Of a stretch of 36,882 bases of DNA, positions 13,987-34,586 are shown one piece after another; the first letter of the stretch is position 1, and the number at the start of each line of letters is the position of its first letter. Made by a program: the position numbers and the translations under genes. A model generated the notes under the pieces. It worked only from the letters and a program-made list of their open reading frames with translations, was not told the origin of the DNA and ran no database searches. The DNA is from Anaerolineae bacterium. Lineage in GTDB: Bacteria > Chloroflexota > Anaerolineae > J102. The stretch spans positions 1 to 36,882 of the forward strand of contig WFTO01000222.1 in NCBI GenBank assembly GCA_015485435.1. The letters run 5' to 3'.

Positions 13987-14586
13987 TCAATCCTCCGTCA
14001 ATAAGCCCAACACCAGAGAGCGGGTGAGTGTTCCCAACAGACGATAGTGGGAGGTGCTGGCATTTTCGGCGAGCTGACGACCAAAATCGGGCAGCCAACG
14101 AGCGAGATGATTGCGGATGAAATACTGCAAAGCACTCTCAACAGCGGGATCTGGGACGTTGGCATTGGTGCGCAGCAACGCGCTCAGACAGGCCAGCTCC
14201 ACACCTGCATGATCCGGCGCATCCAAATGCAGCCAGTGTTCATCCATATGCAAAGTGGCAGGATCGAAACTCACAGACGCGTAAAAGGCGGCCACCTGAT
14301 GGGTGATGGGGCCCCATAGACGGCGGGTGCGCTGAGCCGATTCGTAAGGAGGTAGATAGCGCCCCGAAACAGGCACGAAAAAAAGCGCGTCGTAATCCGC
14401 CCTCAAGTCGGGCAAAGGGTCCGCCTCGTTTGAGAAATCATCAGTGAGGCCCAGCCCCTCATGCAACACTCCGATGGCCTCCGTGAAAGCGATCGTCAGT
14501 CTGCCATTGGGGCGATGAAGATACATGGCAGCCAGCATATCCGCGGCCCGAGCGTAAAAACGTTGTTCGTGTTGATTCATAGTCAT
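13987..14586 (-). CDS. TorD/DmsD-family chaperone for a molybdoenzyme
   Basis: A small all-helical cytoplasmic protein of about 199 residues. The conserved stretch DYDALFFVPVSGRYLPPYES (about 63-82) and the following histidine-rich MDEHWLHLDAPDHAGVELACL are typical of the TorD/NarJ family. These chaperones help insert the Mo-bis-MGD cofactor and hold back TAT export until the enzyme is mature. Its gene lies directly after the molybdopterin catalytic subunit, its expected client. The start is probably ATG 14586 or 14580 (MNQHEQ); the track start at 14622 falls inside a large hairpin and gives a poor N-terminus. No clear Shine-Dalgarno is visible, so its translation may depend on the intercistronic structure. 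Confidence 0.88.
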   Translation of the reverse strand: MTMNQHEQRFYARAADMLAAMYLHRPNGRLTIAFTEAIGVLHEGLGLTDDFSNEADPLPDLRADYDALFFVPVSGRYLPPYESAQRTRRLWGPITHQVAAFYASVSFDPATLHMDEHWLHLDAPDHAGVELACLSALLRTNANVPDPAVESALQYFIRNHLARWLPDFGRQLAENASTSHYRLLGTLTRSLVLGLLTED

Positions 14587-14599
14587 GAGAACCATCGAG

Positions 14600-14648
14600 G
14601 CCAGGCCGCCAGACTCTGCCAACCAGCAGAGTCGCGAGGCGGCCTGGC
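14600..14648 (-). repeat. Large intercistronic hairpin between the catalytic subunit and the TorD-like gene
   Basis: The lower stem is a perfect 11-bp repeat (GCCAGGCCGCC / GGCGGCCTGGC). After a small asymmetric internal loop (A / GCGA), a second perfect 8-bp stem (GACTCTGC / GCAGAGTC) closes a 6-base loop. It starts nine bases after the ttrA-like stop codon and ends 13 bases before the torD-like ATG. No T run follows on the minus strand, so a role in mRNA stability or in lowering chaperone synthesis is more likely than full termination. Confidence 0.85.
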
Positions 14649-14657
14649 GTAAAGGGA

Positions 14658-17600
14658 TCAGATTTTTTCGACTTTGACGGGGATTGCCTGTCGAGCATTG
14701 GAGCCGACCACAAAGTCAGCCAGGGTGGAAAATCCTTTCCGCGAGGGATCGGCAATGCCCAGGAGGTTGCTGGCGACGCCTTTGCCTCGCAAACCGCTGG
14801 CGTGCCACACTTTGTTCTCAATGGTCTCATCTCGGGCTCCCAGTCCCCAGTGACCATAGCCATGTTCAATGCCCACAGTACCGGGCCGAATGCCTTTGCG
14901 CACCGAAATCACACCTTCGACGCTGCCGCCAGGACTGGTGACCCGCACCCGATCGCCGCTACGCAAACCAAGCTTGATCGCATCACTTTGATGCATGACG
15001 ATGGCATTGCTGGGTTGTAATGCGGAAAGTCGTGGCGCACCTATGGACGGCGGAGACATCAATTGCGATTTTGTGGAGACCATTTTGAAGGGCCATTCCG
15101 AAGGAGGATACACTTCATCGATGGGGGTCTCATCAGCGAAAACAGGCTCTCGCCAGGTGGGAACGCCGACGAAGCGTTTACCGTTCATGCTGTTACGAGT
15201 CGTGCCCAATTTCTCATTGTAAATTTGTAGGGGTTTGCCGTAGCGATGAGTGAGCCAGTCACCTTGATACGCGTACTTTTCATCCTCAAAACGACCGCCA
15301 CGAGCCAGCACGTAAGCAACCTTGCGCTGTTCTTCCGGCTTGAGCACTGAAGTGATCTTGTCCCATATGCGCTCCACCCCCGTGAGCTGAAGTTCTTCAT
15401 CTGAAATATCGGGGACGGGTTCTTTGTCGAAGGCGGTATTGGCCGTAATACGCAGGAACCAATCTTCGGGATGGTTGAGTGGATGCAGGTTGCCATCCGC
15501 ATCAGGGATGGCGTCATCACCGAATCCAGGTAGCCCCATCTTCCTGGCTAGGGCGATGAGAAAGCTTTCCATACAAATGGGATCGCCATCAGGGGTTTTG
15601 GCCAGCGGGGGTTCCACCACGGGCCAGCGCACTGAATTCACCTTGGTGAGATACGCGGCCCAAGGATGCGCGTTGCCCCAGGTTTCGTAGAGCACCGTGT
15701 CAGGGACAATGTAATCGGCATAGGCGCTGGTCTCGTTGATGAAGGGATCGATGGCAATGATTAGGGGAATGATTTTGGGGTCAGCCATGGCTTTTTTGGC
15801 GCTCTCAAACAGGCCCGATTGCCCATAGAAGGGATTCGTGTTCCAAAAGATCATGGCTTTGATGGGATAAGGGTAGCCGCTGAGCGCGCCGTTGAGATAT
15901 TCGGGCTGGATAGCCATAGAGAATGGATACCAGGGCGCTTGTGCGGGATAAGGGTTTTGTCCTGCATCCTTTTTTCTCTTGAACTCGGTTGTTTTCTCAT
16001 AAGGAAAGCCACGACGACTGATGCGCACACCTTTGGGTTTGACTTTGCCCTCGAATTTGACCAGATTGTAGCGCGGTTTGGGCCCAAGATCTGCATAATG
16101 TCCGCCTCCAGCGCTGGTTCCACCCTTCCAGTTGAGATTACCGACCAGAGCATTGAGCATAACGATGGCGTAGGCGGTGTAAAATCCGGTGCTGTGCATG
16201 GTGCCCCCGTGGCAGTCAGCCACTGCTTTGCGACCATGGCTGGTGAATTCGTCGGCCAATTCCTCGATGGTTTCTACGGGGATGCCGCATCCGGCGCTGT
16301 ATTCTTCCAACGTACGGGAAAAGGCTTCTTCTTTTAACAGCTGCAGGCTGGTTTTCACAGCGACGTTTTCGCCGTTGATCGCCACAACGCCATCGTAAAA
16401 GAGGAGGGCAGGACCTGTGGCGTTGGCGTGGGCGACAGGCTGTCCGCTAGCTTCGTCAATAACCACAAAAGTGTCATTTTCCCCCTCTTCGGCCAGCCCC
16501 ACCTGTGATCCGCGCAAGAATTTTCCGAAATCCGGTCGATCCTCGTCCACGATGACCAGATGGGTGGCATTGGACCAGCTAGGCTCACCCGCAGCTTTGG
16601 CAGCATCTGCGTTGGGTTGGGCCAGGAAATGCGCATTATACCGTTCGTTCTCCAATATCCAACGGATCATACCCATGGCCAGAGCTGCATCGGTGCCTGG
16701 CTTCACCGGCACCCAGCGGCTGCGCGCCCCTGCAGCAATACTATCAGCATTGGTCAACACCGGATCCACCACTACATAGGTGAGCTTGCCGTCGCTTCGT
16801 CCCTCGGCCACCATCTTGCCCGAACGTTTGAAGGGGTTGCCGGCGTTGGCGGGCGCCGTGCCGATGGTGAGCAAAAATTCGGTGTTCTTGAAATCGGGTT
16901 TGAGATGAGGATACTTCTTCCAATCATCCAGCAATGCGGCATAGCCCGCTCGCATGGAAAGACCGCAATTGCCACGATGCCCCGTGAAATTGATGCTGCC
17001 AAAAGAAAGCACAGAGAAGCGTTTGGCCAATCCCAATCGTCCTTCCTTGAAACCAGCGATGAAGGCGAGTTGATTGGCTTTAGGGCCCAACTCCGGCGCT
17101 TCAGGGTCGATAGGGGTCTCCAGGTCGCGAATGGCGCGTAAACCATCCACATGGCCTTCGCCAAACAGATCGCCACCTTCGACCACCTCTTCCAGCAGCT
17201 GCTCGAAGGAGATAGGTTGCCATTGGCCGCTGCCGCGTGGTCCCACTCGTTTGAGCGGTGTCAGCACCCGATAGGGATCATAGAGTTTGTCCAATACGGC
17301 GTTGCCCCGCCCACATGCGGTGGAACGATGCTTCATGCCCTTATCCTGGTAGGCGCTAAGCATCAGGTAACTTTCTTTGATGGGGGTCTGGTAATCTAAG
17401 AAGGGGTCAGCGGAGAGGATATGATAGGGATTGCCGCTGACGCGCAACACTTTACCTGTCTGTTTGTCCACTCGTACGCGCACACCGCACAGCGTCGTGC
17501 AACCAACGCACACCGTATTGGCCAGATATTGATCTGGGTTGGGAGTCACCTTGCCCGTCTGTCGGTCTACGGTGAATTCCGGCTTGGGCGCATTTCCCGC

Positions 17601-17738
17601 CAGGGGGTCCAGAGGGTGAGCGCCAGCCCACCAGCCCTTACTGATGCCCTTAAGCGTGCTGGCATAGCCTGCACCAAACACTGTGAGCGCACCAGCAGCG
17701 CCCAACGCTTTGAAGAAATCACGTCGATTAAGAGTCAT
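14658..17738 (-). CDS. ttrA: Molybdopterin oxidoreductase catalytic subunit, TtrA-like (tetrathionate reductase type)
   Basis: A 1026-residue member of the DMSO-reductase family, exported folded by the TAT pathway (signal NRRDFFKALGAAGALTVFGAG). An Fe-S site is formed by C77, C80, C84 and a distant C142 (STACGRGNA); this long gap to the fourth cysteine is typical of TtrA and its relatives. The stretch PLKRVGPRGSGQW, then GGDLFGEGHVDGLRAI, is as in TtrA. RGNCGLSMRAGY probably contains the Mo-ligand region, and the C-terminal molybdopterin-binding domain starts near residue 900. The likely reaction is reduction of tetrathionate to thiosulfate outside the membrane; related enzymes reduce selenate or arsenate, so the substrate is not certain. 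The start ATG overlaps the ttrC-like stop (ATGA), with GGAGG in place. Neighbours TtrB, TtrC, a TorD chaperone and a sensor module support the call. Confidence 0.88.
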   Translation of the reverse strand: MTLNRRDFFKALGAAGALTVFGAGYASTLKGISKGWWAGAHPLDPLAGNAPKPEFTVDRQTGKVTPNPDQYLANTVCVGCTTLCGVRVRVDKQTGKVLRVSGNPYHILSADPFLDYQTPIKESYLMLSAYQDKGMKHRSTACGRGNAVLDKLYDPYRVLTPLKRVGPRGSGQWQPISFEQLLEEVVEGGDLFGEGHVDGLRAIRDLETPIDPEAPELGPKANQLAFIAGFKEGRLGLAKRFSVLSFGSINFTGHRGNCGLSMRAGYAALLDDWKKYPHLKPDFKNTEFLLTIGTAPANAGNPFKRSGKMVAEGRSDGKLTYVVVDPVLTNADSIAAGARSRWVPVKPGTDAALAMGMIRWILENERYNAHFLAQPNADAAKAAGEPSWSNATHLVIVDEDRPDFGKFLRGSQVGLAEEGENDTFVVIDEASGQPVAHANATGPALLFYDGVVAINGENVAVKTSLQLLKEEAFSRTLEEYSAGCGIPVETIEELADEFTSHGRKAVADCHGGTMHSTGFYTAYAIVMLNALVGNLNWKGGTSAGGGHYADLGPKPRYNLVKFEGKVKPKGVRISRRGFPYEKTTEFKRKKDAGQNPYPAQAPWYPFSMAIQPEYLNGALSGYPYPIKAMIFWNTNPFYGQSGLFESAKKAMADPKIIPLIIAIDPFINETSAYADYIVPDTVLYETWGNAHPWAAYLTKVNSVRWPVVEPPLAKTPDGDPICMESFLIALARKMGLPGFGDDAIPDADGNLHPLNHPEDWFLRITANTAFDKEPVPDISDEELQLTGVERIWDKITSVLKPEEQRKVAYVLARGGRFEDEKYAYQGDWLTHRYGKPLQIYNEKLGTTRNSMNGKRFVGVPTWREPVFADETPIDEVYPPSEWPFKMVSTKSQLMSPPSIGAPRLSALQPSNAIVMHQSDAIKLGLRSGDRVRVTSPGGSVEGVISVRKGIRPGTVGIEHGYGHWGLGARDETIENKVWHASGLRGKGVASNLLGIADPSRKGFSTLADFVVGSNARQAIPVKVEKI

Positions 17739-18952
17739 TGTACGCCTCCTTTGGGCAAAACAACAACTTGATCTTGAGCATCGAAAGCATCGTTTACAAC
17801 GTCATCTTCCGGTTCAGCCGCATCATAGTTGCGCCACGGCAAGAACCAGGTAAAAAGAATAAAAAGGAAAAGCCAGAACGCCCAGTTAGAAATCACCTGC
17901 ATTACCCCTTTGCTACCCCAAAATTCGGGGTGATATTGGTAAAACCCGGCTGTGGTCTTGGGAATCTCCTGACCCCCAATAACCGTGTCCCACCGAAACA
18001 ACCACACACCAGCGATGGTGACCAGCGCCGAAAGTATGAGGAGGGGACGGATGCGACGCAAGCGAGGAATGAGCATCACAAGGGCAGGGATCATCAGGGA
18101 AAGCACAATCTCAATAAGCACAGTCTCCGTGAAGCGCTCCCTAAACATGAAGCGGATGACCTCCAGATAGGAGCCATAGGAATAAAAGAAACCAATGCTA
18201 TACCAAAAGAGACGGATGGTAAGGTCGGTGATGATAGTCCAGCCCAACAATACGGCTAAGCGGTCGATGAGAGTCCAGTTAATGCGACCCTTCTCATTCC
18301 GCACCATAAGCCAGGTCAAAACCAACATAAAAGCGATACCGCTGACCATAGCCGATACCAGAAAGATAAGGGGCATAAGCGGAGTGTGCCACAAAGGCCG
18401 GGCCCGCACCACGCCCAGTATGTAGCCAGTGTAGCCATGCACCGCGATGGCGAAGGGAATGCCGATGGCTCCCAAAATGTAACTCCATTTGTGATCCCGT
18501 TTTTCGGTTTCGGATGTCACCTCATGAGAGCCCAGGGCCAGGAACGCATAGAATTTTTGTTTGCTGCCAGAAGCTTGCTGGGCTTTGCGGGCAAAACCGG
18601 CCCGAAATGCGTAGACGCCTTCCAGTGCGATAAGCAATGGATATGTCGTCAATAAAAAGACACCCCAACTCATAGGCGATGTGACATGGGTGTGATAAAA
18701 CAGGGAATAAAAACGCCCCTGCTGCTCCAAATCAGCGATCAGATTCAATGGAGCGGCTATCAGCACCGTAAAGGCCACGATGAGTGAGAGTTTGGCAATA
18801 GGACGATAGTGCTCATCGCCGAAGACATAGGTGAGGGCAGAAATGAGAAATGCGGCCGCACTCAGACCCGTAAAAAAGAAGTATTGGGGAATGGCTAAGC
18901 TCCAATCAACGCCATGGAGTGCGTTGATGATTTCAATAATGTACGGATTCAT
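17735..18952 (-). CDS. ttrC: NrfD/PsrC-family membrane anchor and quinol oxidase subunit, TtrC-like
   Basis: A 405-residue polytopic membrane protein of the NrfD family with about nine or ten hydrophobic segments, starting at WSLAIPQYFFFTGLSAAAFLISAL and including HGYTGYILGVVRARPLWHTPLMPLIFLVSA. In this family the protein oxidises quinol in the membrane and passes electrons to the Fe-S subunit. It is longer than Salmonella TtrC (about 340 residues); the extra length includes a soluble loop (about 120-155) and an acidic C-terminal tail (AAEPEDDVVNDAFDAQDQ). The start ATG overlaps the TtrB-like stop (ATGA), and AAAGGAG precedes it. Both overlaps suggest translational coupling across the B-C-A subunits. 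Confidence 0.88.
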   Translation of the reverse strand: MNPYIIEIINALHGVDWSLAIPQYFFFTGLSAAAFLISALTYVFGDEHYRPIAKLSLIVAFTVLIAAPLNLIADLEQQGRFYSLFYHTHVTSPMSWGVFLLTTYPLLIALEGVYAFRAGFARKAQQASGSKQKFYAFLALGSHEVTSETEKRDHKWSYILGAIGIPFAIAVHGYTGYILGVVRARPLWHTPLMPLIFLVSAMVSGIAFMLVLTWLMVRNEKGRINWTLIDRLAVLLGWTIITDLTIRLFWYSIGFFYSYGSYLEVIRFMFRERFTETVLIEIVLSLMIPALVMLIPRLRRIRPLLILSALVTIAGVWLFRWDTVIGGQEIPKTTAGFYQYHPEFWGSKGVMQVISNWAFWLFLFILFTWFLPWRNYDAAEPEDDVVNDAFDAQDQVVVLPKGGVQ

Positions 18953-19698
18953 GGTTGCGCCAGCTCCTTTTTCAGCTCTTCTTCGGTCCAGGGAACGGGT
19001 TCGCCGTTGACCTTGGCCTGAAGATAATCACTCAGACCGATGTAAAAAACCCGAGGATCGGTGCCCATTTCTGGTTTAAGCACCTGTGTGGCATGTTCTT
19101 TCAACAGTTGATTGATCTCGCTATTGGGATCGTTAAGATCGCCAAAAATGCGAGCTCCACCCACACAGGTCTCCACACAGGCGGGCAGCAAACCCGCCTC
19201 AGTGCGATGCACGCAGAATGTGCATTTGTCTGCCGTGTGGGTTTCAGGGTTGATGTAACGAGCATCGTATGGGCAGGCCTGCACACAATAAGCGCACCCG
19301 ATACAAACTTCGTTGTCCACCACCACTATGCCATCGCCACGTTTGTATGTGGCCTGCGTGGGACACACCTCCACGCAGGGGGGATTTTCGCAATGGTTGC
19401 ATAGGCGGGGCAGGGTGGCGCGACGGGCCGTATCGCCAAAATCGATCTCGTAGGTGGAAACGATTGTGCGATGGTAGCCCAGGGGCACATCATTTTCCAT
19501 GGAGCAAGCGACGCTGCACGCTTGGCAACCGATACACTTGCGCAGATCGATCAGCATGCCCCAACGGTGGCTGCTTTCACTGGGTTCATCAGGGTTGGCC
19601 GCCATCGCCTCCTGTTTTGGAACCATGACGGCCGTTGTCGCGGCAACAGCAGCCCCGCCTACCATGAATTTAAGAAATTCGCGGCGGTCTGTCTTCAT
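18949..19698 (-). CDS. ttrB: Four-cluster ferredoxin-type electron transfer subunit, TtrB-like
   Basis: A 249-residue protein with a twin-arginine signal (TDRREFLKFMVGGAAVAA). Sixteen cysteines lie in four groups expected to bind four [4Fe-4S] clusters: CIGCQACSVAC, CNHCENPPCVEVC, CIGCAYCVQAC and CTFCVHR with ACVETC. It would relay electrons from the membrane quinol subunit to the molybdenum site on the outer face of the membrane. It is the first structural gene of the B-C-A set, with AGGAGG five bases before ATG. A palindrome and a TACAAT -10 lie in the 125-base gap behind the regulator gene, so it probably has its own regulated promoter. Confidence 0.9.
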   Translation of the reverse strand: MKTDRREFLKFMVGGAAVAATTAVMVPKQEAMAANPDEPSESSHRWGMLIDLRKCIGCQACSVACSMENDVPLGYHRTIVSTYEIDFGDTARRATLPRLCNHCENPPCVEVCPTQATYKRGDGIVVVDNEVCIGCAYCVQACPYDARYINPETHTADKCTFCVHRTEAGLLPACVETCVGGARIFGDLNDPNSEINQLLKEHATQVLKPEMGTDPRVFYIGLSDYLQAKVNGEPVPWTEEELKKELAQP

Positions 19699-19743
19699 AC
19701 AACTCCTCCTGAAAAGATGGAAACAAGAACTATTGCTCCACCT

Positions 19744-19793
19744 ATTGTAAGATTTCCCACTATCAGAACTCTAAATATTCCCCCTCAAGTTCT
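19744..19793 (-). promoter_or_regulatory. Candidate activated promoter and operator in front of the ttrB-like gene
   Basis: AGAACT (19765-19770) and AGTTCT (19788-19793) form an inverted repeat with a 17-base AT-rich spacer. Read on the minus strand, TTTAGA also recurs with 21-base spacing. The -10-like TACAAT (19744-19749) has no -35 hexamer at the right distance; the palindrome edge covers that place. This is the layout expected for an activator-dependent promoter, and the OmpR-type regulator encoded just upstream is the natural candidate (inference). Confidence 0.45.
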
Positions 19794-19823
19794 AAAAATT
19801 TTCTATAAAATTCAGATTGTTGG

Positions 19824-20516
19824 CTATTCGCAACGCAAGCTGTATCCCACGCCCGGATAAGTGACGATCTCTGCATCCTTGGCGTGAGCCAACTTTTGCC
19901 GTAGTCGACCAATATAAATATGCAAATATTGATTGTTGCCCCGATACTCATCCCCCCACACACCAGCGAGCAGATAATCGTAGGTGAGCACCCGGTTCTT
20001 ATGGCGTAGCAACAACGTCAGCAGGTTGAATTCGGTGGGGGTTAGGCGGATTTCTTCATGTCCAATCCAACCCTGATGTGAGGCGACATCCACCGTCACG
20101 TCGCCCGCGCGCAACGGCACATCGGGCGGGGATGCGGTCGCACTCGACGCCCGGCGCAAGACGGCGCGCACGCGGGCCAGCAGCTCCTGCAGCCCGAATG
20201 GTTTGGTCAAATAGTCATCTACGCCGCTATCTAGCAATTCGACTTTTTTGGCTTCATCGCTCAGTGCGCTGAGAACGATGATGGGGGTGTGGCTCGATCG
20301 CCGCACAGCAGCCACAACCTGGGCGCCATCCACTTTGGGCATCATCAGATCAAGGATAATCAAATCAGGCGTTTCAGAGGCCAGCATATCCAGAGCGGCC
20401 TGACCGTCGCGAGCAATGAGCACGTCGTATCCCCGCGCTTTGAGGTTGACTGACACGAATTTAATGACGCTGGGATCGTCATCAACAAGGAGGATGCGGG
20501 TTTTGGCGGCTGTCAT
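19824..20516 (-). CDS. OmpR/PhoB-family response regulator
   Basis: A 230-residue two-component regulator. The receiver domain shows the acidic pocket VDDD (11-14), the phospho-acceptor Asp56 in LIILDLMMP and the lysine in LTKPFG. A winged-helix DNA-binding domain follows (about 130-228), with LTPTEFNLLTLLLRHKNRVLT and IYIGRLRQKL. The track ORF begins 54 residues earlier, inside the kinase gene; the family start MTAAKTRILLVDDD at 20516 fits better, although no strong ribosome site is seen. It lies 49 bases after the kinase gene and 125 bases before the ttrB-like gene, pointing to control of that operon. Salmonella TtrR is of another family (NarL/FixJ-like), so the regulator here was recruited independently. 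Confidence 0.93.
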   Translation of the reverse strand: MTAAKTRILLVDDDPSVIKFVSVNLKARGYDVLIARDGQAALDMLASETPDLIILDLMMPKVDGAQVVAAVRRSSHTPIIVLSALSDEAKKVELLDSGVDDYLTKPFGLQELLARVRAVLRRASSATASPPDVPLRAGDVTVDVASHQGWIGHEEIRLTPTEFNLLTLLLRHKNRVLTYDYLLAGVWGDEYRGNNQYLHIYIGRLRQKLAHAKDAEIVTYPGVGYSLRCE

Positions 20517-20565
20517 ACAGACGTTTTTGAAAGAAATGGATGGAAGGATGGCAACGTGATGCGTT

Positions 20566-22380
20566 TCAATGGATGCAAGGCAGTGTAAAATGAATGGTCG
20601 AACCTTCCCCAATCTGACTTTCGGCCCAAATGCGGCCGCCATGCGCTTGAACCAGCCCCTTACAAATGGCCAGCCCAAGCCCTGTTCCCGAGGTTTCGGG
20701 ATGATCGCCGCGATAGAAACGTTCGAAGAGATGAGGCAGCGCCTCAGGGGGAATGCCTGGGCCTTTGTCGTGAATATCGACCTGAATCATGTCATCCACT
20801 TTGTGAGCCGTGATGGTGATGGGGGCGCCTTCGGGCGTGTATTTGGTGATATTCTCGATGAGATTGCGCAGGATGTCAATGATCCGCTCTCGATCGCCGT
20901 CGATGGGAGGGAGATCATCAGGGATATCGACGTGCACCGGGCGTTCTCCTAACAAAGGTTGCATGCGTTCCAATGTCACCGAGACGAGGTGATGCAGGCT
21001 ACACGGGCCCCGTTGCAGGCGAAGGGTGCCCGCCTCCAGTTGCGCCATATCAAGCAACTGGTTCACCAGATCGCGTAGCTTATCCGCCTCTTCCACAATG
21101 GTCCGCAGAAAATCTTGTTGGGTGTCCTTGTCCCACGTCACATCTTCCAAAAGCAACGTTTCGGCAAATCCCTTGATGGAGGTGAGGGGTGTGCGCAATT
21201 CGTGGGAAACGGTCGCCAAAAATGCACTTTTCAACCGGTCCGCTTCCTGAGCTTGCTCCAGAGCGACCTGCAACTTTTCCGTACGCACCGCGACGAGGCC
21301 TTCCAATCCGCTGGCATACTGTTGCAACTCGGCAACCATTTGGTTGAATGCTCGGGCCAATTGGCCGATCTCATCCTGACGCTGAATGGCGCTCCGTCGA
21401 GAGAGATCGCCCTGGCCCACTGCGATGGCATCTTCGGAGAGTAGCGTGATGGGATGGGTGACGCTACGGGCGATGAACCATCCCGGAATGGCGCTGGCAG
21501 TCATGGCCAACATCACCCCCAAAAGCAGCCAGTAGAAAAGTGTGCGCACCGGCGCCAGGGCCTCGGACGCCGGCTGCTCCACCACCACCCACCATCCCAA
21601 TGCAGGAATGGCCTGGGCATTGCCCATCACGGGACGGTTCCAGGCGTCTCGATAGCGCGAGGGTAAGGGGGCGCCAGAGCGCAATGCCTGCATGAGAGGA
21701 GCCTCATCGATCCGCGTTTCGGCCAGTACAAGACTGTAATCGGGGTGGGCGAGTAGACGCCCAGAGGCATCAATAATATACATGACGCCCCCTTTTCCCA
21801 CCCGAAACGCGGTGACTTGATCCCACAATCCCCGCAGGCTTATGACGGCCATGAAATAGTGCTTAGGGCGTTGGCCGTATGGATCGCGACATGGCACGAA
21901 CACCGTCAGCAGTGGGGCGCCATTGGCAGAAAGTTGGACGGGCCCCCAGCTTACATCGCCATTCTTCGCTTTTAAAAACGCTTCATTGCCCGACAGATTC
22001 CGTAAATCCTCAGACGTAATAAGACGAATGCGAGAGACCCGGTTCATCTCCCGACCAGTTGCATCTAACAGGCTGATTTCTTGCGCCAAGGGGGCTTGAT
22101 GTATCAGGTGGCGTAAAATGCGATCTCGTTCAGCAGGCGAAACGCGACTCCAATCGGTGATTTCTGCGGAAGCCTGCAACAAAGAGACCACGTGCGTCAG
22201 CCTGGTTTCAATAAGAAGGGCCGCTCGTTTGGTCATTTCGCGCTGTGCAGCGCTGGCCGCCTGAACTTGCTGGGTGTAAAGGGTGTACAGGGAAAAACCG
22301 GCCAGCGCCAACATGGGCAGCAACGCGGCTAAGGCAGCCTGCACGATCATCCGAGTCTCTAGCCGTCGCCAGCGACTCAC
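20566..22380 (-). CDS. Membrane sensor histidine kinase with Cache-type extracytoplasmic domain
   Basis: A 604-residue kinase. It has a first membrane helix (about 12-36), a large outside domain (about 38-280) with double-Cache features (WGPVQLSANGAPLLTVFVP, VMYIIDASGRLLAHPD, LGWWVVVEQP), a second helix (about 281-304) and a HAMP domain (to about 356). HisKA follows with His393 in VSHELRTPLTSIKGF, then the ATPase domain with NLIENITKYTPEG, DKGPGIPPE, FERFYRG and TGTGLGLAICKG. It starts with GTG, overlapping the stop of the binding-protein gene (GTGA). It would phosphorylate the regulator encoded next. The signal may come from a Cache ligand, from the lipoprotein partner, or both. Confidence 0.93.
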   Translation of the reverse strand: MSRWRRLETRMIVQAALAALLPMLALAGFSLYTLYTQQVQAASAAQREMTKRAALLIETRLTHVVSLLQASAEITDWSRVSPAERDRILRHLIHQAPLAQEISLLDATGREMNRVSRIRLITSEDLRNLSGNEAFLKAKNGDVSWGPVQLSANGAPLLTVFVPCRDPYGQRPKHYFMAVISLRGLWDQVTAFRVGKGGVMYIIDASGRLLAHPDYSLVLAETRIDEAPLMQALRSGAPLPSRYRDAWNRPVMGNAQAIPALGWWVVVEQPASEALAPVRTLFYWLLLGVMLAMTASAIPGWFIARSVTHPITLLSEDAIAVGQGDLSRRSAIQRQDEIGQLARAFNQMVAELQQYASGLEGLVAVRTEKLQVALEQAQEADRLKSAFLATVSHELRTPLTSIKGFAETLLLEDVTWDKDTQQDFLRTIVEEADKLRDLVNQLLDMAQLEAGTLRLQRGPCSLHHLVSVTLERMQPLLGERPVHVDIPDDLPPIDGDRERIIDILRNLIENITKYTPEGAPITITAHKVDDMIQVDIHDKGPGIPPEALPHLFERFYRGDHPETSGTGLGLAICKGLVQAHGGRIWAESQIGEGSTIHFTLPCIH

Positions 22381-23381
22381 GGCGTCTCCTCCGGGAAGAA
22401 CTGGTCCCCCAGTCGCACTGTATCCTCATCGAGATGAAGTCCCATCTCGCGGGCGGTTTGCATATTGATGCTAAATTCGGGTGTGTCAGGAAATTCCACG
22501 GGGATATCTCCCGCCGGAACGCCACTGAGCGCTTTGTCAACCAAACGCGCAGCCTGATACCCCATGCTTTGGAAAGAGGCGCCATACGCGGCCAGTCCTC
22601 CTGCGGCTACAATGTCTTGATTGAGGCCCATAATGGGAATACGCGCTCGTGATGCAGCGGGCAGCAGTACGGTGGGCAAGGCGTTCTCTAGAGTGTAGCA
22701 AGGAGTGACGAGGATGGCGTCGGCCATGCCCGGTTGTAGTGCATTGGCAAAGCGTTCCAGCGATGCCTCACCATCCACGGGCTGAGGGATCAGGGTGAGA
22801 TTTAGTCGTGTGGCTGCCCATTGCGCTTCCCTCAATGCAGCCAGGCTTGGCGTGATATTGGGACTGTACAACACCAACACGCGTTGCGTTGCAGGCAACA
22901 ACAAGGTCAAAAATTCCAACCGCTTGCTGGTGATCTCGATGTAGCCATTGTCAACGCCGGTCATGTTGTGACCTGGATGCTGGAAACTTTCCACTACACC
23001 CCAGTCTACGGTCGCGGCCACGCCGATGAATACGATGGGTGGGCCATCATTCGTTGCCAGCTTTTTGGCTGTTTGCGTCTCCACCCCACCGAGTGTAACG
23101 AGGACATCGGGATGCTGCATTAGAGCCTGTTGCGTTAGATCGGGTAAGCGGTCCCCTTGATTTTCGGCGTTGAATATCGTCACAATCAGATTTTCGCCTG
23201 GTCGGTACCCGCGATCGGCCAGTCCCTTTTCCAAACTCTCCGCCTTAACCAATCGCGATTGCCCTGAAGCGATCACAGCAAGATGGTAAACGGCGGAGGA
23301 TGACGTGGCGGATTGGGTGCATCCAGAGAAAAGGAATGTCGCCAACGTGACAAGCGCAACAAGAAAATAGCGAAATGTCAT
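22377..23381 (-). CDS. Periplasmic/extracytoplasmic binding lipoprotein, ABC_sub_bind family
   Basis: A 334-residue lipoprotein (signal peptide ending in lipobox LFSGC). The mature part resembles the ABC_sub_bind (TrpX/PF04392-like) periplasmic binding fold: LAVIASGQSRLVKAESLEKGL, DVLVTLGGVETQTAKKL, PPIVFIGVAATVDWGVV, NMTGVDNGYIEITSKRLEFL, PIMGLNQDIVAAGGLAAYG. No ABC permease or ATPase gene is next to it; instead it is fused by overlap (GTGA) to a histidine kinase gene. That suggests a sensory role, presenting a ligand to the kinase, much as TtrS of Salmonella carries a binding-protein domain. It is the first gene of the minus-strand respiratory locus. The ligand is unknown; tetrathionate or another electron acceptor is an inference. 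Confidence 0.88.
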   Translation of the reverse strand: MTFRYFLVALVTLATFLFSGCTQSATSSSAVYHLAVIASGQSRLVKAESLEKGLADRGYRPGENLIVTIFNAENQGDRLPDLTQQALMQHPDVLVTLGGVETQTAKKLATNDGPPIVFIGVAATVDWGVVESFQHPGHNMTGVDNGYIEITSKRLEFLTLLLPATQRVLVLYSPNITPSLAALREAQWAATRLNLTLIPQPVDGEASLERFANALQPGMADAILVTPCYTLENALPTVLLPAASRARIPIMGLNQDIVAAGGLAAYGASFQSMGYQAARLVDKALSGVPAGDIPVEFPDTPEFSINMQTAREMGLHLDEDTVRLGDQFFPEETP

Positions 23382-23915
23382 GAAACGAAAGCATCCATTC
23401 AGATGAGAAGGATGATGATTTATTTTAGCGCATATAGCACACCAAGACTATTTTTCCATGATCAAAACCAAATGGATAGCAGCGCGCAGGGGACGCAGAG
23501 GGCATTACGCCCAACATTCCACAGTCAGAAACATTCCGGGATGCGAGGACCTCAGCGAATTTCAGACATACCGCCTGCTGCGATGCGATCCACGTTTTTG
23601 ATGGCAGAAATTCTGAAAATCCTTCGCAGCAAGGCATGATGCCTGAAAAAACCGTGATATCTCCTCGGCAATATCTCAACGGAGCGAAGTGCAGAGGGCG
23701 ATGTGCAACAGGGAAGTAATGGACGTTGCTGATGACGTATATGGCGCTGCAGCTGACAGCGTATGGGCTAGTCTGGTTGATTGCAGAGCACAGAAGCGCC
23801 CATTGAGGATCATGGGACATTTGTACCAGTTGCGAGGGGTGATTTGTCTTAGAAAAAATAAGCCCCATTACTCACGACAGCGCATCATCACGCTGCTAAG
23901 ATGAACCTATGGGGA
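23382..23915. other. Divergent intergenic region between the respiratory locus and the ABC importer operon
   Basis: About 530 bases. The minus ORF 23425-23868 and the plus ORFs here do not look like protein and lack ribosome sites. AACATTCC occurs twice with 17-base spacing (about 23511 and 23528). I see no clear promoter for the binding-protein gene on the minus strand and no RNA gene. Confidence 0.45.
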
Positions 23916-23943
23916 TTGACGTCGCATGGACGCTGTCTATGTT
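23916..23943 (+). promoter_or_regulatory. Candidate promoter of the ABC importer operon
   Basis: -35 TTGACG (23916-23921), 16-base spacer, -10 TATGTT (23938-23943). It lies about 60 bases upstream of ATG 24003. This stretch is inside the upstream extension of the track ORF (23901), which favours the later start codon. Confidence 0.4.
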
Positions 23944-24002
23944 CGCGGCAATCCTCCCAATCGCCATTTTTTCAAATGCTTTACCCTACGAGGAGGTTGA
24001 TG

Positions 24003-25709
24003 ATGAACACATGGACGCGTCAGCGTTTTGTTTTGCTTGGAATTATCGCCCTGGCAGTTGTGATGTTGGCCGCTTGCGGAGGATCATCGACGCCAGCACC
24101 AGCCGAGCCCACCCAAGCGCCGCCACAAGCAACGAAGGCAGAAGCGCCGGCAGCTACACAGGTTCCAACAGAGGCCTCTGCGGCAAAGAGCCCTGTCGCG
24201 TTGCGGGTGACGTTCGCCTGGCCAACCTACATCGATCCCGCGGTGGGCAACGACTTTTCCAGCTCTGCGGCTCTGGTCAACCTATATGACTCATTGGTCT
24301 TTCCTGCCAAAGATGGCGGCGTCATTCCCTGGCTGGCGGAATCCTGGGACACCTCGGAGGATGGCCTGACCTGGACATTTAAATTGCGGCAAGGCGTGAA
24401 GTTTCATGATGGAAGTGAACTGACCGCGAGCGATGTCGTCTATAGCATGAAGCGATTGCAAACGATCGGCGAAGGCTATGCCTATATGTTCGAAAACGTC
24501 GCCGATGTGTCCGCCCCCGATGACCAGACCGTAGTCTTTACCCTGTCGAAACCTAGTGGTCTGTTCCTCTTGAGTCTGGTGCGACTTTACGTCTTAAATG
24601 AGGACCTTGTCAAAGCCAATACCGCTAAGAAGGGTTCATATGGTGAAAATGGCGATTACGGCAAAGATTGGTTGTTGACTCATGACGCCGGTTCAGGTCC
24701 TTACATGGTCAAAGAATTCCCTCTTGAAGAATATTTGCTTATGGAAAAGAACGATGATTGGTGGGGAGATTTCGTAGAGAATGCGCCAGATGAAGTGCGG
24801 TTTATCGCCGCCACCGAGACCGCAACCGTGCGCACCTTAATGGCCGACCGTCGTCTGGAGATCAGCGATCAATGGCAGACCGTGCAGGCATTGAAATCGT
24901 TGGATGCCATTGACGGCATTTCTGTGGCTGCCATCCCTACGATGACGGAATTTTATTTCATGATTAATACCAAAATCCCCCCCACAGATGATGTCCACTG
25001 CCGTCGCGCCATGTCCTACGCCTTCGATTACGCCACCGCTGTGAGCCTGGAATGGGAGGGCACGAAACAGTCTCAAGGCCCAGTCCCCGCCACCCTGGCC
25101 GGCCACAATCCTGATGTGTTCGTCTTCCCCCATGATGTGGACAAGGCAAAAGAGGAATTGGCCCAGTGCAAATATGCCGACGAGCTCGACCAATATCCGG
25201 TGGAAATTCACTGGATCTCCGAAGTGCCCGATGAAGAAAAGTTTGCCTTGCTTTTCCAGTCGAACATGGCGGATATTGGCATGCCGGTCAAAGTCGTTTC
25301 CACGCCCTGGCTGAGCGTGGTGGAGAACATGAGCAAACTGGAAACCAGCCCCCACATTGTGACCATTTACGTGGGCGCAGATCTGCCCGACGCCGGAGTG
25401 ATGCTGAATCAGCGATACAGCTCCGCCACCGCCGATCAATGGCTCCAGAACGAATGGCTGCTGGACAAGGACTTCGACGCCCGGATCGCGGACGCCCTCG
25501 CCACCGTGGATCAGAACGAACGATACGCCAAATATTACGAATTGCAGGATTACATCGTAGATCTGGCCCCTTCCCTGTTCGTCTATGACCAGGTGGAAAA
25601 GCACGCGGTGCAGGATTACGTGGATTGGCCTGCAATGAAAGGAGAAATGAGCCCGATGCAGGGGTATTACTTCTTTGCTCCGCAAATTGGTGTGAACCCA
25701 ACGCAGTAA
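24003..25709 (+). CDS. Solute-binding lipoprotein of an oligopeptide/dipeptide-type ABC importer (SBP_bac_5)
   Basis: A 568-residue lipoprotein. Its signal peptide ends in LAAC (Cys25), followed by a long Pro/Ala/Thr-rich linker. The family 5 binding fold is shown by WLAESWDTSEDGLTWTFKLRQGVKFHDGS, ELTASDVVYSMKR and HCRRAMSYAFDY. Family members bind peptides, but also nickel, glutathione or opines. I use ATG 24003, with AGGAGG at a good distance; the track start at 23901 would place 34 non-signal residues in front of the signal peptide. It is followed by two permease and two ATPase genes and then by cyclic-amide catabolism genes, so the ligand may be the substrate of HyuAB or a proline-containing peptide (inference). 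Confidence 0.93.
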   Translation: MNTWTRQRFVLLGIIALAVVMLAACGGSSTPAPAEPTQAPPQATKAEAPAATQVPTEASAAKSPVALRVTFAWPTYIDPAVGNDFSSSAALVNLYDSLVFPAKDGGVIPWLAESWDTSEDGLTWTFKLRQGVKFHDGSELTASDVVYSMKRLQTIGEGYAYMFENVADVSAPDDQTVVFTLSKPSGLFLLSLVRLYVLNEDLVKANTAKKGSYGENGDYGKDWLLTHDAGSGPYMVKEFPLEEYLLMEKNDDWWGDFVENAPDEVRFIAATETATVRTLMADRRLEISDQWQTVQALKSLDAIDGISVAAIPTMTEFYFMINTKIPPTDDVHCRRAMSYAFDYATAVSLEWEGTKQSQGPVPATLAGHNPDVFVFPHDVDKAKEELAQCKYADELDQYPVEIHWISEVPDEEKFALLFQSNMADIGMPVKVVSTPWLSVVENMSKLETSPHIVTIYVGADLPDAGVMLNQRYSSATADQWLQNEWLLDKDFDARIADALATVDQNERYAKYYELQDYIVDLAPSLFVYDQVEKHAVQDYVDWPAMKGEMSPMQGYYFFAPQIGVNPTQ

Positions 25710-25734
25710 GGGAAGGCTCCCTCATTTCAAGCAT

Positions 25735-25788
25735 CTGGTGCATCGCATCCTGTGCGGTCCTCACCCCTACATGGGTGCGATGCACCAG
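25735..25788 (+). repeat. Long intercistronic hairpin between binding-protein and permease genes
   Basis: CTGGTGCATCGCA (25735-25747) and TGCGATGCACCAG (25776-25788) are a perfect 13-bp inverted repeat, and the stem can extend inward (TCC/GGG, then TGT/ACA past a bulge). No T run follows. In importer operons such a hairpin often protects the binding-protein message and lowers expression of the membrane parts. Confidence 0.8.
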
Positions 25789-25820
25789 CCAGATTCAGAT
25801 CGTCTTACGGGACTTTCTTT

Positions 25821-26849
25821 ATGAAACTTCTGCCTTTTATCGGCAAACGGGCTTTTCATGCCATTTTCGTATTGCTCGGCCTGTCGATCGTCATCTTCGT
25901 GATCGCACGGGTGATGCCTGGCGATCCCGCTCGGGTTGCTGTGGGAGCTCACGCACCCGATTGGGTCGTGCAGGATATCCGGGAGCAGATGCACCTTGAT
26001 GAACCATTGGTCGTGCAGTATTTCTACTGGCTGCGAGATGCGTTGCATGGCGATTTCGGCGTTTCCCTGGTGACGCGACGAGATGTTGCCCAAGATATTA
26101 TCGAATTTTTCCCAGCCTCCTTGGAGCTCGCACTCTTTGCCCTGCTGATATCCGCCGGGTTGGGCATCACCTTAGGCACGCTCTCGGCCTGGCACAAAGA
26201 CAAATTCGTCGATAATCTCGTGCGGGTGCTTTCCTACATGGGAGTGGTCACGCCTTCCTTTGTCTTCGCCATCCTGTTTCTGCTGCTTTTCGGTTATCTG
26301 CTGCACTGGTTTCCAACCCTGGGGCGTTTGAGTGAAGATGTGGCCCGACCTCCCACCGTAACCGGTTTTATGACGGTGGATTCTCTGTTAGCGGGCGATA
26401 TGGTCGCCTTTTGGGATGCGTTGAAGCATTTGGTGTTGCCTGCCTTGGCCCTGGCCATGGGTTCCATGGCTCAGGAGGCGCGCATCACCCGCGCCAGCAT
26501 GTCGGAAAATCTGAACAAGGATTACATCGCGGCCAGCCGGGCCTTCGGCATTCCAGAACGGTATGTTATGGGACGATTTCTACTCAAGCCATCGCTGATC
26601 CCCACCATTTCCATCATCGGTCTGGATTTTGCCGCCAACTTCAGCAACGCGTTTTTGGTGGAACTCATTTTCGTGTGGCCCGGGCTTTCTCGTTACGGCA
26701 TGAACGCGATCCTTCGCAAGGATTTGAACGCCATTTCCGCGGTCATCCTGGTGTTGGGCGTCGTGTTCATTATCGTGAACATCATCGTCGATATCACCGT
26801 CGCCAAACTCGATCCTCGCATTGGTTTACGCTCCGCCCGAAGTGAATAA
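25821..26849 (+). CDS. ABC importer permease, DppB/OppB family
   Basis: A 342-residue inner-membrane protein with about six membrane segments. The N-terminus (RAFHAIFVLLGLSIVIFVIARVMPGDPAR) and the short outside segment with DLHLDEP-like MHLDEPLVVQYFYWL are standard for DppB. The cytoplasmic coupling loop is seen as EARITRASMSENLNKDYIAASRAFGIPE. It starts at ATG 25821 (MKLLPFIGKRAFH); the ORF track begins 23 residues earlier in the intercistronic hairpin region. It pairs with the DppC-type permease encoded 26 bases downstream. Confidence 0.93.
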   Translation: MKLLPFIGKRAFHAIFVLLGLSIVIFVIARVMPGDPARVAVGAHAPDWVVQDIREQMHLDEPLVVQYFYWLRDALHGDFGVSLVTRRDVAQDIIEFFPASLELALFALLISAGLGITLGTLSAWHKDKFVDNLVRVLSYMGVVTPSFVFAILFLLLFGYLLHWFPTLGRLSEDVARPPTVTGFMTVDSLLAGDMVAFWDALKHLVLPALALAMGSMAQEARITRASMSENLNKDYIAASRAFGIPERYVMGRFLLKPSLIPTISIIGLDFAANFSNAFLVELIFVWPGLSRYGMNAILRKDLNAISAVILVLGVVFIIVNIIVDITVAKLDPRIGLRSARSE

Positions 26850-26875
26850 CGCTTCATCCCGATACAACTAGGCTC

Positions 26876-27802
26876 ATGACCCAACAGACGAACCTCTCGT
26901 TTTCTGGTTTGAACGCCCAACAAATCAAACAGCTCGAACGTGAAAGTCGCCGCGAGCATTGGGGACGGGCGTGGTACAAATTTTCCCGGAACTCCCTTTC
27001 CATCGTGGGTGCGGTCACCATTTTGATCATTGTGTTTCTGGCTATTTTCGCCCCCTATGTCACGCCTTATCCCGATCATGCCACCAAACCCTTCACCGAC
27101 TTCGCCAACGCCAGCCAGCCGCCAAGCCTGGAACATCTCTTTGGCACCGACGAGATCGGTCGGGACATTTTCAGCCGCACCATTTTCGGATTTCGGTTCT
27201 CCCTCAGCATGGGCGTCATCGTCCTCTCGCTGGTGGTGCCGGTGGGCGTGCTGCTGGGACTGATTGCCGGTTACTACCAGGGAACGCGCATCGACAGCAT
27301 CATCATGCGCACCACCGATATTTTCCTTTCGGTGCCCTCCCTGATTCTTGCCCTGGCCATTGCTTCGGTGCTGGAGCCCAATCTCTCTCACTCGATGATC
27401 GCCATTTCGTTGATGTGGTGGCCCTGGTACACGCGCCTTGTCTATGGCCAGACCACCGCGCTGCGCAACGAATTTTTCGTCAGCTCCGCAGAGGTCACAG
27501 GCGCCAGTACGGCTCATATTCTTTTCCGCGAGATCCTGCCTAACATCCTTTCGTCCATCTTTACCAAGATGAGCCTGGACATGGGATGGGTGATCATCAT
27601 CGGCGCATCGTTGAGCTTTGTGGGCCTGGGCGTGCAGCCTCCCAAGCCAGGCCTGGGCACCATGGTGGCCAGCGGCGCCAAATACCTGCCCGATCAGTGG
27701 TGGATTTCCCTCTTCCCCGCTCTGGCTATCGTGGTCATCGTGCTGGGTTTCAACCTGTTGGGCGATGGTCTGCGCGACCTCTTCGCCGCGGAGGAAGTGT
27801 GA
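26876..27802 (+). CDS. ABC importer permease, DppC/OppC family
   Basis: A 308-residue inner-membrane protein. It has an N-terminal cytoplasmic stretch, the OppC_N region with a first membrane helix (SIVGAVTILIIVFLAIFAPYV), the family signature HLFGTDEIGRDIFSRTIFGFRFSLSMG, about five further membrane segments and the coupling loop AEVTGASTAHILFREILPNIL. It ends one base before the next ATG. A 386-codon open frame on the opposite strand (26693-27853) is a shadow of this gene and is not annotated. Confidence 0.93.
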   Translation: MTQQTNLSFSGLNAQQIKQLERESRREHWGRAWYKFSRNSLSIVGAVTILIIVFLAIFAPYVTPYPDHATKPFTDFANASQPPSLEHLFGTDEIGRDIFSRTIFGFRFSLSMGVIVLSLVVPVGVLLGLIAGYYQGTRIDSIIMRTTDIFLSVPSLILALAIASVLEPNLSHSMIAISLMWWPWYTRLVYGQTTALRNEFFVSSAEVTGASTAHILFREILPNILSSIFTKMSLDMGWVIIIGASLSFVGLGVQPPKPGLGTMVASGAKYLPDQWWISLFPALAIVVIVLGFNLLGDGLRDLFAAEEV

Positions 27803-27803
27803 C

Positions 27804-28832
27804 ATGACCAGACAACCATTGCTCGAGATCGAAAACCTGCGGGTGGGGTTCAAGGTCTATGGCGGTGAATTGCACGTGCTGGACGGCGTCGATTTCGTCG
27901 TGAACAAGGGCGAAAAGGTGGGACTTGTCGGAGAAACAGGTTGCGGCAAGACCACGACCATGAAAGCGATCTTGCGCATTCTGCCCCAACCACCTGGCTT
28001 CATCGAAAGCGGCGTCATTCGATTTCACGGTCGCGACTTAATGCAAGTCAAGGACCGAGAAATGAGACACATTCGGGGCCAAGGCATTTCGATGATCTTC
28101 CAGGACCCCACCGCCGCGCTCAATCCCGTCTTTACCATCGGCCAGCAGCTGGAGCCGGTCATCAAATACGCCTCACCCGAAAATCGACGCCTACCGCGCA
28201 AGGTCATCCGCCAAAAAGCCATTCAAGCCCTTCGAGACGTCTCCCTGGCCGATCCCGAACGCCTGCTCAAAGCCTATCCCGTTCAGCTCAGCGGGGGCAT
28301 GCGCCAGCGCGTGTGCATCGGCATGGCGCTGGCCACCAATCCAGAGCTGCTCATCGCTGATGAACCTGGCACCTCCCTCGACGTGACCATTCAGGATCAG
28401 GTGCTGCGGCTGCTGCATCAATTGGTGGAAGAGCGGGACAGCTCCGTCATCCTCATCACCCACACCCTGGGCATCGTCCGTCAGATGACCGATCGGCTGT
28501 ATGTGATGTATGCGGGCAATATGGTGGAAACCGCGCCCACGCGTCGCATCTTCACCAACCCCCTGCATCCCTACACCCAGGGCTTAATGGACGCGGTGCC
28601 CAAATTGACCGGAGGCGGCGTGGCCCACGGCATTCCCGGACGCATCCCCGACTACCTCCATCCTCCCACCGGATGCCGCTTCCATCCCCGTTGCCCCCAC
28701 GCCATGGACATCTGCCGTCAGAAGAAACCGTCGTTTTACACCGTCGAGGAGGCGCACCAGGTCGCCTGTTTTCTCTATGACACATCATCCGGGGCCGACT
28801 CCGCGCCCGCCCGCAAGGAGGCGCTGGCATGA
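27804..28832 (+). CDS. ABC importer ATPase, DppD/OppD family
   Basis: A 342-residue ATPase with Walker A GETGCGKTT, Q-loop MIFQDPTAALNP, signature LSGGMRQRV, Walker B LLIADEPGTSLD and the switch histidine in ILITHTLGIV. The C-terminal oligopeptide-transporter extension is present (HPYTQGLMDAVPKL and GCRFHPRCPHAMDIC). The Walker B neighbourhood reads DEPGTSLD where most relatives have DEPTTALD. I start at ATG 27804, with GGAGG upstream; the longer track frame is out-of-frame reading of the permease gene. Its stop overlaps the next start (ATGA). Confidence 0.94.
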   Translation: MTRQPLLEIENLRVGFKVYGGELHVLDGVDFVVNKGEKVGLVGETGCGKTTTMKAILRILPQPPGFIESGVIRFHGRDLMQVKDREMRHIRGQGISMIFQDPTAALNPVFTIGQQLEPVIKYASPENRRLPRKVIRQKAIQALRDVSLADPERLLKAYPVQLSGGMRQRVCIGMALATNPELLIADEPGTSLDVTIQDQVLRLLHQLVEERDSSVILITHTLGIVRQMTDRLYVMYAGNMVETAPTRRIFTNPLHPYTQGLMDAVPKLTGGGVAHGIPGRIPDYLHPPTGCRFHPRCPHAMDICRQKKPSFYTVEEAHQVACFLYDTSSGADSAPARKEALA

Positions 28833-29821
28833 CCGAGGATATTCTCACCATCACCGATCTGAAAAAGCACTTTGTCATTGGTCACAACGGCCTGATCCAC
28901 CGCACGCCCATAACGGTCAAGGCGGTGGATGGCGTCTCCCTGAGTCTACGGAAGGGAGAGACCTTTGGCCTGGTAGGCGAATCGGGCTCGGGCAAGAGCA
29001 CCGTCGCTTACATGACCGTGGGCATGTATCGCCCCACCTCGGGCACGATTCGATTTCGCGGTGAAGACCTGTTCGATGGCTCCAAGGAACGCTCGAAACG
29101 CCATAAAAAAGAGATTCAAATCGTCTTTCAGGACCCTGGTTCCTCTCTGAACCCGCGCCGCAGCATCAAAGACATCCTGGACCTGCCTTTGCGTATCCAT
29201 CAGCCGCAAAAGAATCGGTTGGAAGAGATCGTGCGTCTGCTCAGTCTGGTCGAGCTTCCTCCAGAATACATGTACAAGTACCCGCGGCAGTTGAGTGGCG
29301 GAGAGAAACAGATCGTCGCCATCGCTCGCGCCCTAGCTACGGACCCATCCATCATCGTCCTCGATGAACCCACTTCCGCGCTGGATGTCTCTATTCAGGG
29401 CAAGGTCATCAATCTGCTCATCCGCCTGCAACAGGAATTCGAGCTCTCCTTCCTGTTCATCACCCACGATCTCAGCCTGATGCGGAACGTCGCCTCGCGG
29501 GTGGCCATCATGTATCTAGGCAAGATCTGCGAGGTCGCGGACGCCGCAGAATTTTTCGAAAACCCGCTGCATCCCTACACCCAAATGCTGCTCTCCTCGA
29601 TTCCGGTCCTGACCGAGGAGGAGGAAGCCCTGAAACCGGTCAAGGTCGAATCCCGGGGCGAGATTCCCAGCCCTGTGAATGTGCCGCCAGGATGCAGCTT
29701 TCACTCCCGATGCCCCTATGCCGAAGCCATCTGCAAACAGGTCGATCCCGAGATGAAAGAAATTCGCCCCGGACATACGGTGCGGTGTCATCTCTTTGCA
29801 TCTGACAGGAGTCAAGCTTAG
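28829..29821 (+). CDS. ABC importer ATPase, DppF/OppF family
   Basis: A 330-residue ATPase that pairs with the DppD-like protein. It shows Walker [11 protein letters not shown]-loop [13 protein letters not shown], signature [15 protein letters not shown], Walker [15 protein letters not shown], switch histidine in FITHDLSL and the C-terminal extension [14 protein letters not shown] with [15 protein letters not shown]. The start ATG overlaps the stop of the preceding gene by four bases, and AAGGAGG is placed in the preceding coding sequence. It closes the five-gene importer set. Confidence 0.95.
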
Positions 29822-29906
29822 AGGTTTCGCAATCACCAAGGTCGGCGCAAGCGTTGTTTCATTATTTTGTAACGGTTTCATCCTCTTGCGAGTGTGGAGT
29901 TCCCAA

Positions 29907-30710: not shown

Positions 30711-30779
30711 AAACCCATTGCATCACCGATAACGCATTCAATCATTCTTATCATCGCAACCTTCTCAGGAGTAAGCCCC

Positions 30780-34512: not shown

Positions 34513-34528
34513 CGCGTCTACACCAACC

Positions 34529-34573
34529 GACAGGAATCCGTCGAGCTGAGTTGGCACTTGGCGGCTTCCTGTC
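34529..34573 (+). repeat. Intercistronic inverted repeat between hyuB and the M24 peptidase gene
   Basis: GACAGGAA (34529-34536) and TTCCTGTC (34566-34573) are perfect 8-bp arms; after one mismatch the stem can go on with CCG/CGG. It ends 13 bases before ATG 34587. There is no T run, so this is not a standard terminator; it may tune translation of the peptidase. The alternative TTG start at 34551 would lie in its loop. Confidence 0.55.
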
Positions 34574-34586
34574 ACGGCAACATAAC

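Follow-up and report, generated by a model that had tools for sequence, protein, structure and literature searches.

Organization of the locus

We analyzed a 36,882 bp stretch of DNA from an Anaerolineae bacterium of the Chloroflexota (contig WFTO01000222.1 of GCA_015485435.1, a metagenome assembly of 448 contigs), hereafter called the window. It contains a locus of seven genes, all on the minus strand and running from 23381 to 13987, in the order binding lipoprotein, histidine kinase, response regulator and the reductase genes B, C, A and D. A first-pass annotation of this DNA had described TtrA-, TtrB- and TtrC-like subunits, a TorD chaperone and a sensory trio facing in one direction, and the Pfam and NCBIfam matches bear this out. 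We consider it likely that the locus is a ttrBCA-type respiratory operon with its chaperone, placed under a dedicated three-component sensor.

The first gene (22377..23381) encodes a binding lipoprotein of the family PF04392 (ABC_sub_bind, 155.7 bits in Pfam), the proposed ligand receptor. Its stop codon overlaps the GTG start of the kinase gene (20566..22380) as GTGA; the kinase has the Pfam domains dCache_1, HAMP, HisKA and HATPase_c. The regulator gene (19824..20516) starts with an ATG at 20516, 49 bases past the kinase stop, and encodes Response_reg and Trans_reg_C domains, i.e., a regulator of the OmpR type. A gap of 125 bases separates it from B (18949..19698), a TtrB-like electron-transfer subunit with a 4Fe-4S ferredoxin match in Pfam. 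B is followed by C (17735..18952), an NrfD/TtrC-like membrane subunit (Pfam NrfD), and by A (14658..17738), a molybdopterin oxidoreductase in Pfam and the TtrA-clade catalytic subunit; the B/C and C/A junctions are ATGA overlaps. D (13987..14622) encodes a TorD/NarJ-type chaperone (PF02613, Nitrate_red_del). As called, D begins with TTG, and one of the ATG codons at 14595, 14586 and 14580 may be its true start. The gene overlaps make translational coupling plausible. Thus the binding protein is a separate one, as had been noticed from the sequence, and its proposed coupling to the kinase is plausible through the GTGA overlap. The kinase has a Cache sensor of its own and the regulator is of another family than that of the Salmonella system, also as described.

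Identity of the reductase

The best NCBIfam match of A is TtrA (NF011567), with 1179 bits over residues 3-1026. B and C match TtrB and TtrC best, at 328 and 84 bits, under the respective cut-offs of 416 and 314. A shares 46% identity with Salmonella TtrA, 53% with a proteobacterial enzyme adjoining TtrSR and 45% with TtrA-clade enzymes of Bacillota; the values fall to 36% for members of the family beyond the TtrA clade and 27% for an ArrA-like protein from the same genome. A tree built from 82 catalytic subunits, with branch support given as SH-aLRT, places A inside a TtrA clade of 28 sequences (support 100), within which it is nested in a clade of 21 (support 100) with Salmonella, Citrobacter, Yersinia and others, mostly adjoining TtrSR. 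ArrA-like and other MopB sequences fall outside. A firm place beyond the TtrA-like clade had been named in the first-pass annotation as evidence against its reading, and the tree shows the opposite. The cluster cysteines C77, C80, C84 and C142 and the molybdenum-ligand position C258 align with those of Salmonella TtrA, and a twin-arginine motif (NRRDFF) begins at residue 4, where the Pfam Tat model scores slightly under its cut-off. Based on its place in the tree, the identities, the conserved cysteines and the twin-arginine motif, we assign A to the TtrA clade from its sequence and regard it as probably a tetrathionate reductase. An ArrA- or PhsA-like enzyme is ruled out by the tree and the scores.

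The genome encodes a second operon of the TtrA/SrdA family (G000:C228; L042:117-7329, minus strand), whose catalytic subunit is 36-40% identical and which has a LuxR-type regulator upstream. Two related reductases in one genome are thus under different regulators. The ArrA-like molybdopterin protein of the same genome (G000:C389:3674-6193; L226) scores 1306 bits against an arsenate reductase cut-off of 1600.

The binding lipoprotein and the sensor half of the kinase

Residues 18-21 of the lipoprotein read FSGC and resemble a lipobox; its Anaerolineae relatives have LTGC, LSGC or LGGC at this place. Lipoboxes are found in the Anaerolineae sensor proteins; more than half of the Bacillota ones have none and appear membrane-anchored. 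In its AlphaFold model (mean pLDDT 80.6) the lipoprotein matches 3lkv (VC_1101), 6hni (CD0873) and 3lft (SP1069), which are binding proteins of class I, and it accordingly models with a class I binding-protein fold. In the phylogeny, the sensor proteins of such trios form a clade of 32 sequences with support of 100/99. It leaves out the TrpX-like transport proteins and all Desulfobacterota PF04392 proteins except one (L266). That one is on a long branch among the sensor proteins, and constraining these to a single clade without Desulfobacterota is not rejected (p-AU 0.328). The lipoprotein of the window lies in this clade, and the next gene encodes the homologous dCache half. Six positions (R/K43, K46, G98, E101, N145 and E232) do not vary across the sensor clade, and TrpX-like proteins hardly ever have these residues. 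The two conserved basic residues would be in keeping with an anionic ligand.

PF04392 proteins directly followed by a large kinase (about 920-1000 amino acids), mostly with overlapping genes and with no TtrA-type reductase adjoining, occur in Desulfobacterota (L267-L276). The kinase scanned at one of these loci (L269) has the architecture dCache-HAMP-GAF-GAF-HisKA. Such pairs are a wider sensor kind, presumably with other signals.

The two halves of the window kinase have different affinities. Its sensor half is homologous to those of all 31 other trio kinases (41-373 bits) and has no homology to 32 TtrS or 11 other kinases (at most 2.5 bits). Its core, in contrast, scores up to 147 bits against unrelated kinases and at most 106 against the trio kinases of Bacillota. 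This pattern points to a sensing pair of binding protein and Cache half that has been kept, while the kinase core and the regulator have been exchanged.

Predicted operators and promoters

The gap between regulator and B contains a predicted operator (19760..19807, minus strand) that reads TATAG-N6-TTTAG, 16 bases, TTTAG-N6-GATAG. Ten bases past the last repeat lies TACAAT (19744..19749, minus strand), the predicted -10 box of the B-C-A(-D) operon. The same arrangement, TATAG-N6-TWTAG, 16 bases, TWTAG-N6-GATAG and then TAYAAT 10 bases on, is present in all four Anaerolineae genomes for which the gap sequence is available. Beyond these gaps, the pattern occurs nowhere else on either strand of about 6 Mb of fetched sequence. 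The four repeats constitute two pairs with an 11-bp period, 32 bp apart, spanning the expected -35 region. Such paired 11-bp repeats over the -35 region are the arrangement that a PhoB-like activator would be expected to use, and the block is likely the operator for the OmpR-type regulator.

The corresponding regulators in Bacillota are of the NtrC type. If they act on the reductase, sigma-54 promoters are expected ahead of the reductase genes. We scanned for matches to at least 10 of the 11 positions of TGGCAC-N5-TTGCW. In 20 of 25 Bacillota loci, a few of which are near-duplicates, such a sigma-54 box lies at the first gene of the reductase operon, compared with 1.7% of stretches drawn at random from these loci.

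Distribution in Anaerolineae and Bacillota

Among 100 relatives, a close lipoprotein (at least 412 bits) was found in five genomes and a TtrA-type enzyme (>1900 bits) in four, all of them within the five. In the fifth (G407), the 3.9-kb contig ends inside the regulator gene. The order of trio and operon is kept in three further Anaerolineae genomes with different outer flanks, which argues that the locus is more than chance and rules out a local curiosity or misassembly. G361 has the seven genes in one piece in the order of the window; G400 has the lipoprotein gene through A, followed by the contig end; and in G405 the operon is split across two contigs. Relatives of the chaperone gene lie after A in L045 and L085. 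In a sample of 281 Chloroflexota genomes the sensor protein was found only in the genome of the window, so the module is rare in this phylum. A is 81% identical between the window and G361, and C (17735-18952 in the window, L085:5772-6878 in G361) is 32% identical; to judge from these values, subunit C has probably been replaced in one of the two.

Counterparts are found in the Bacillota. In Tepidibacillus decaturensis, a TtrA-clade operon of the order A-D-B-C precedes genes for a PF04392 protein, a dCache kinase and a regulator of the NtrC type. Within 399 Bacillota genomes the sensor protein is present in 25 and a catalytic subunit of the TtrA/SrdA family in 32, and all 25 are among the 32. 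The hypergeometric probability of this co-occurrence is about 1e-33, which ignores relatedness and is only indicative, as the sampled genomes are related. The first-pass annotation had named a trio that occurs without the reductase in most relatives as evidence against a link between the two; instead, the reductase accompanies it in four of five Anaerolineae and 25 of 25 Bacillota genomes. We examined 29 Bacillota loci, including two further genomes of the order of Tepidibacillus; four are cut by contig ends within or just past the trio. The reductase operon lies no more than 12 kb from the sensor in 23 of the 25 uncut loci and about 19 kb away in L218.

The trio-linked Bacillota enzymes occupy two places in the catalytic-subunit tree, the TtrA clade and a separate clade of 12 sequences, hence the module is not tied to a single type of enzyme. 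We call members of the TtrA/SrdA family beyond the TtrA clade "SrdA-like", in a tree that was built without the characterised SrdA of Bacillus selenatarsenatis. Two genomes (G844 and G884) have two linked copies each, and their sensor proteins pair by enzyme type and not by genome (L211 with L212, L223 with L224), which favours joint inheritance of sensor and enzyme.

Five of the Bacillota TtrA-clade catalytic genes have one in-frame TGA codon (L211:6204-3115, minus strand; L212:14797-17886, plus strand; L213:4414-1229, minus strand; G869:C1:3448304-3451354; G797:C73:14883-17954). In the three genes that were read, the TGA is exactly at the molybdenum-ligand position, Cys258 of the window enzyme, suggesting that such genes probably encode selenocysteine-containing TtrA-like reductases.

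Proposed mechanism and alternatives

We propose that the lipid-anchored class I binding protein would capture, on the outer side of the membrane, an electron acceptor that is most likely tetrathionate, since the enzyme groups with tetrathionate reductases. The binding protein would dock on the kinase encoded next to it, at the dCache domain, and the kinase would phosphorylate the OmpR-type regulator. The regulator would bind the four TWTAG/GATAG repeats by the -10 box in the gap ahead of B and so turn on the reductase operon. Regulation of the reductase operon by the trio is very likely, and the binding protein has a good chance of being the primary receptor. That the ligand is tetrathionate is about as likely as not.

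Several observations weigh against this scheme. A does not reach the NCBIfam TtrA cut-off of 1750 bits, which is reached in none of 400 Chloroflexota genomes. The closest solved relatives of the lipoprotein bind aromatic amino acids, the Desulfobacterota pairs of PF04392 protein and kinase, mostly beyond the sensor clade, do not adjoin such a reductase, and one Bacillota locus (L214, a second copy) has no such reductase nearby. The ligand is not readable from the sensor, as the module serves reductases beyond the TtrA clade. The ligand, the protein contacts, the phosphotransfer and the DNA binding are steps that we infer from sequence.

The low score of A would fit an enzyme whose substrate is selenate, arsenate or some further compound of sulfur or selenium, still under the control of the trio, and so would the enzymes beyond the TtrA clade that the same module accompanies. 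We give this a smaller though substantial probability, as the TtrSR-linked clade encloses A with full support and its identities of 46-53% there exceed the 36% to the family beyond. The first-pass proposal of control of tetrathionate (or selenate/arsenate) respiration is supported: the enzyme is of the TtrA clade. A strictly tetrathionate-specific module is ruled out by the other enzymes that it adjoins. It is also conceivable that the acceptor, or another signal, is sensed directly by the dCache domain, with the binding protein only modulating the response or reporting a second signal such as the electron donor. dCache domains often bind small ligands themselves, and the kinase has a full one. 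Such a division of labor is unlikely in view of the constant association of binding protein and Cache half (31 of 31 trio kinases, none of 43 others) and of the overlap between their genes, which suggests matched production.

The nearest solved structures, 3lkv, 6hni and 3lft, are of proteins that bind Phe, Tyr and Trp (PMC6816091), as would be expected if the lipoprotein were simply a protein of the TrpX kind that serves the transport of aromatic amino acids and adjoins a kinase by chance. This is highly improbable. The TrpX model NF041285 gives 121 bits against a cut-off of 390; no permease or ATPase gene of its own adjoins the lipoprotein gene, whose neighbours are the kinase and a divergent, unrelated transport operon, whereas in the TrpX-like control locus L168 BPD_transp_2 and ABC_tran genes adjoin the binding protein. 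The specificity pair E263/Y279 of CD0873 corresponds to N254/F270, positions that vary within the sensor clade, and the linkage to a dCache kinase and a reductase recurs in two phyla. In view of the missing transporter genes, the separate clade and the different residues, we reject the reading as a transporter component.

Comparison with known sensory systems

TtrSR-TtrBCA of Salmonella and Shewanella has a reductase of the same clade, the same subunits B, C and A, and adjoining sensor genes. Both systems are alike in kinase-regulator control by the acceptor, which is described for TtrSR (PMC5408782) and predicted for the window. TtrS, however, probably senses tetrathionate by a fused PhnD-like domain (PMC5408782) and has no Cache domain, and TtrR is of the LuxR type. 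The window has instead a free class I binding protein, a kinase with dCache_1 and no fused PhnD-like domain, a Trans_reg_C regulator that is not of the LuxR/NarL kind, and a TorD-type chaperone gene within the cluster. Convergent control, as suggested in the first-pass annotation, is supported at the level of fold, since the lipoprotein models as class I and PhnD-like proteins are of class II (PMC5908839). At L050 (2453-5152, plus strand), near a TtrBCA operon, lies a gene for a protein of 899 aa that has a binding domain of the TtrS type and no match to the kinase part of TtrS. The description of the locus as a "rewired" ttr system needs correction. The module is wider than one locus, and the word implies a direction of change: trio-linked enzymes also form the Bacillota branch of the TtrA clade, so TtrSR could equally be the derived state.

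In layout, the module resembles AioXSR, ArxXSR and ArrXSR, where a free binding-protein gene, a kinase and a regulator also adjoin a molybdenum oxidoreductase. In these systems the substrate of the adjoining molybdenum enzyme is recognised by AioX, ArxX or ArrX, free binding proteins of the PhnD-like class II (PMC5908839). They are phylogenetically unrelated to the class I PF04392 protein of the window, and their enzymes are Aio, Arx and Arr, whereas that of the window is of the TtrA clade. Judged by its genes, the system of the window is thus a predicted three-component electron-acceptor sensor of the AioX/ArrX-type layout, with another class of binding protein and another family of reductase.

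LuxP and TorT have the class I fold, and the sensor domain of LuxQ is a tandem-PAS domain. LuxPQ and TorTS share with the window a separate periplasmic binding protein that acts on a sensor kinase (cited in PMC5908839). Their kinases, LuxQ and TorS, are instead of the hybrid type and differ in output; the ligands are AI-2 and TMAO, and the binding proteins belong to other families. TrpX, CD0873 and VC_1101 belong to the Pfam family and fold of the lipoprotein; the TrpX-like proteins are in separate clades and are without the residues that stay invariant across the sensor clade. A count from 2022 put the number of characterised binding proteins that activate a sensor kinase at only about ten (PMC9602780). 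We found no description of the module in the literature, with most subscription journals outside the search; it looks widespread and is apparently undescribed.

Other features of the window

Upstream of the lipoprotein gene is a divergent operon (23901-35672, plus strand) that encodes an oligopeptide-type ABC transporter (SBP_bac_5), an Asp/Glu/hydantoin racemase, hydantoinases A and B and an M24 peptidase. It looks like a system for uptake and breakdown of a hydantoin or 5-oxoproline-like compound. A large serine recombinase gene with Resolvase, Recombinase and zinc-ribbon domains (2-1435, plus strand) is cut by the contig start.

Implications

We lean towards a view in which a family of class I binding-protein sensors, each with a dCache kinase as its partner, is one of the main devices that control reductases of the TtrA/SrdA family in Bacillota and in some Anaerolineae, of an origin independent of TtrS and AioX/ArrX. 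Its output end would have been swapped as a unit, comprising either an NtrC-type regulator with sigma-54 promoters or an OmpR-type regulator with paired 11-bp repeats, and the sensing pair would have been retained. The module recurs in two phyla; it has a clear partner among the reductases and predicted operators, and Tepidibacillus decaturensis is a cultured host. It would be a natural case of output domains exchanged behind a sensing pair that is conserved, would help to predict the substrates of uncharacterised TtrA/SrdA-family enzymes, and would provide sensors for tetrathionate, selenate or arsenate from outside the Proteobacteria. For the bacteria that possess it, the module would be an apparently widespread switch for respiration of sulfur, selenium or arsenic compounds, unlike the sensor of Salmonella.

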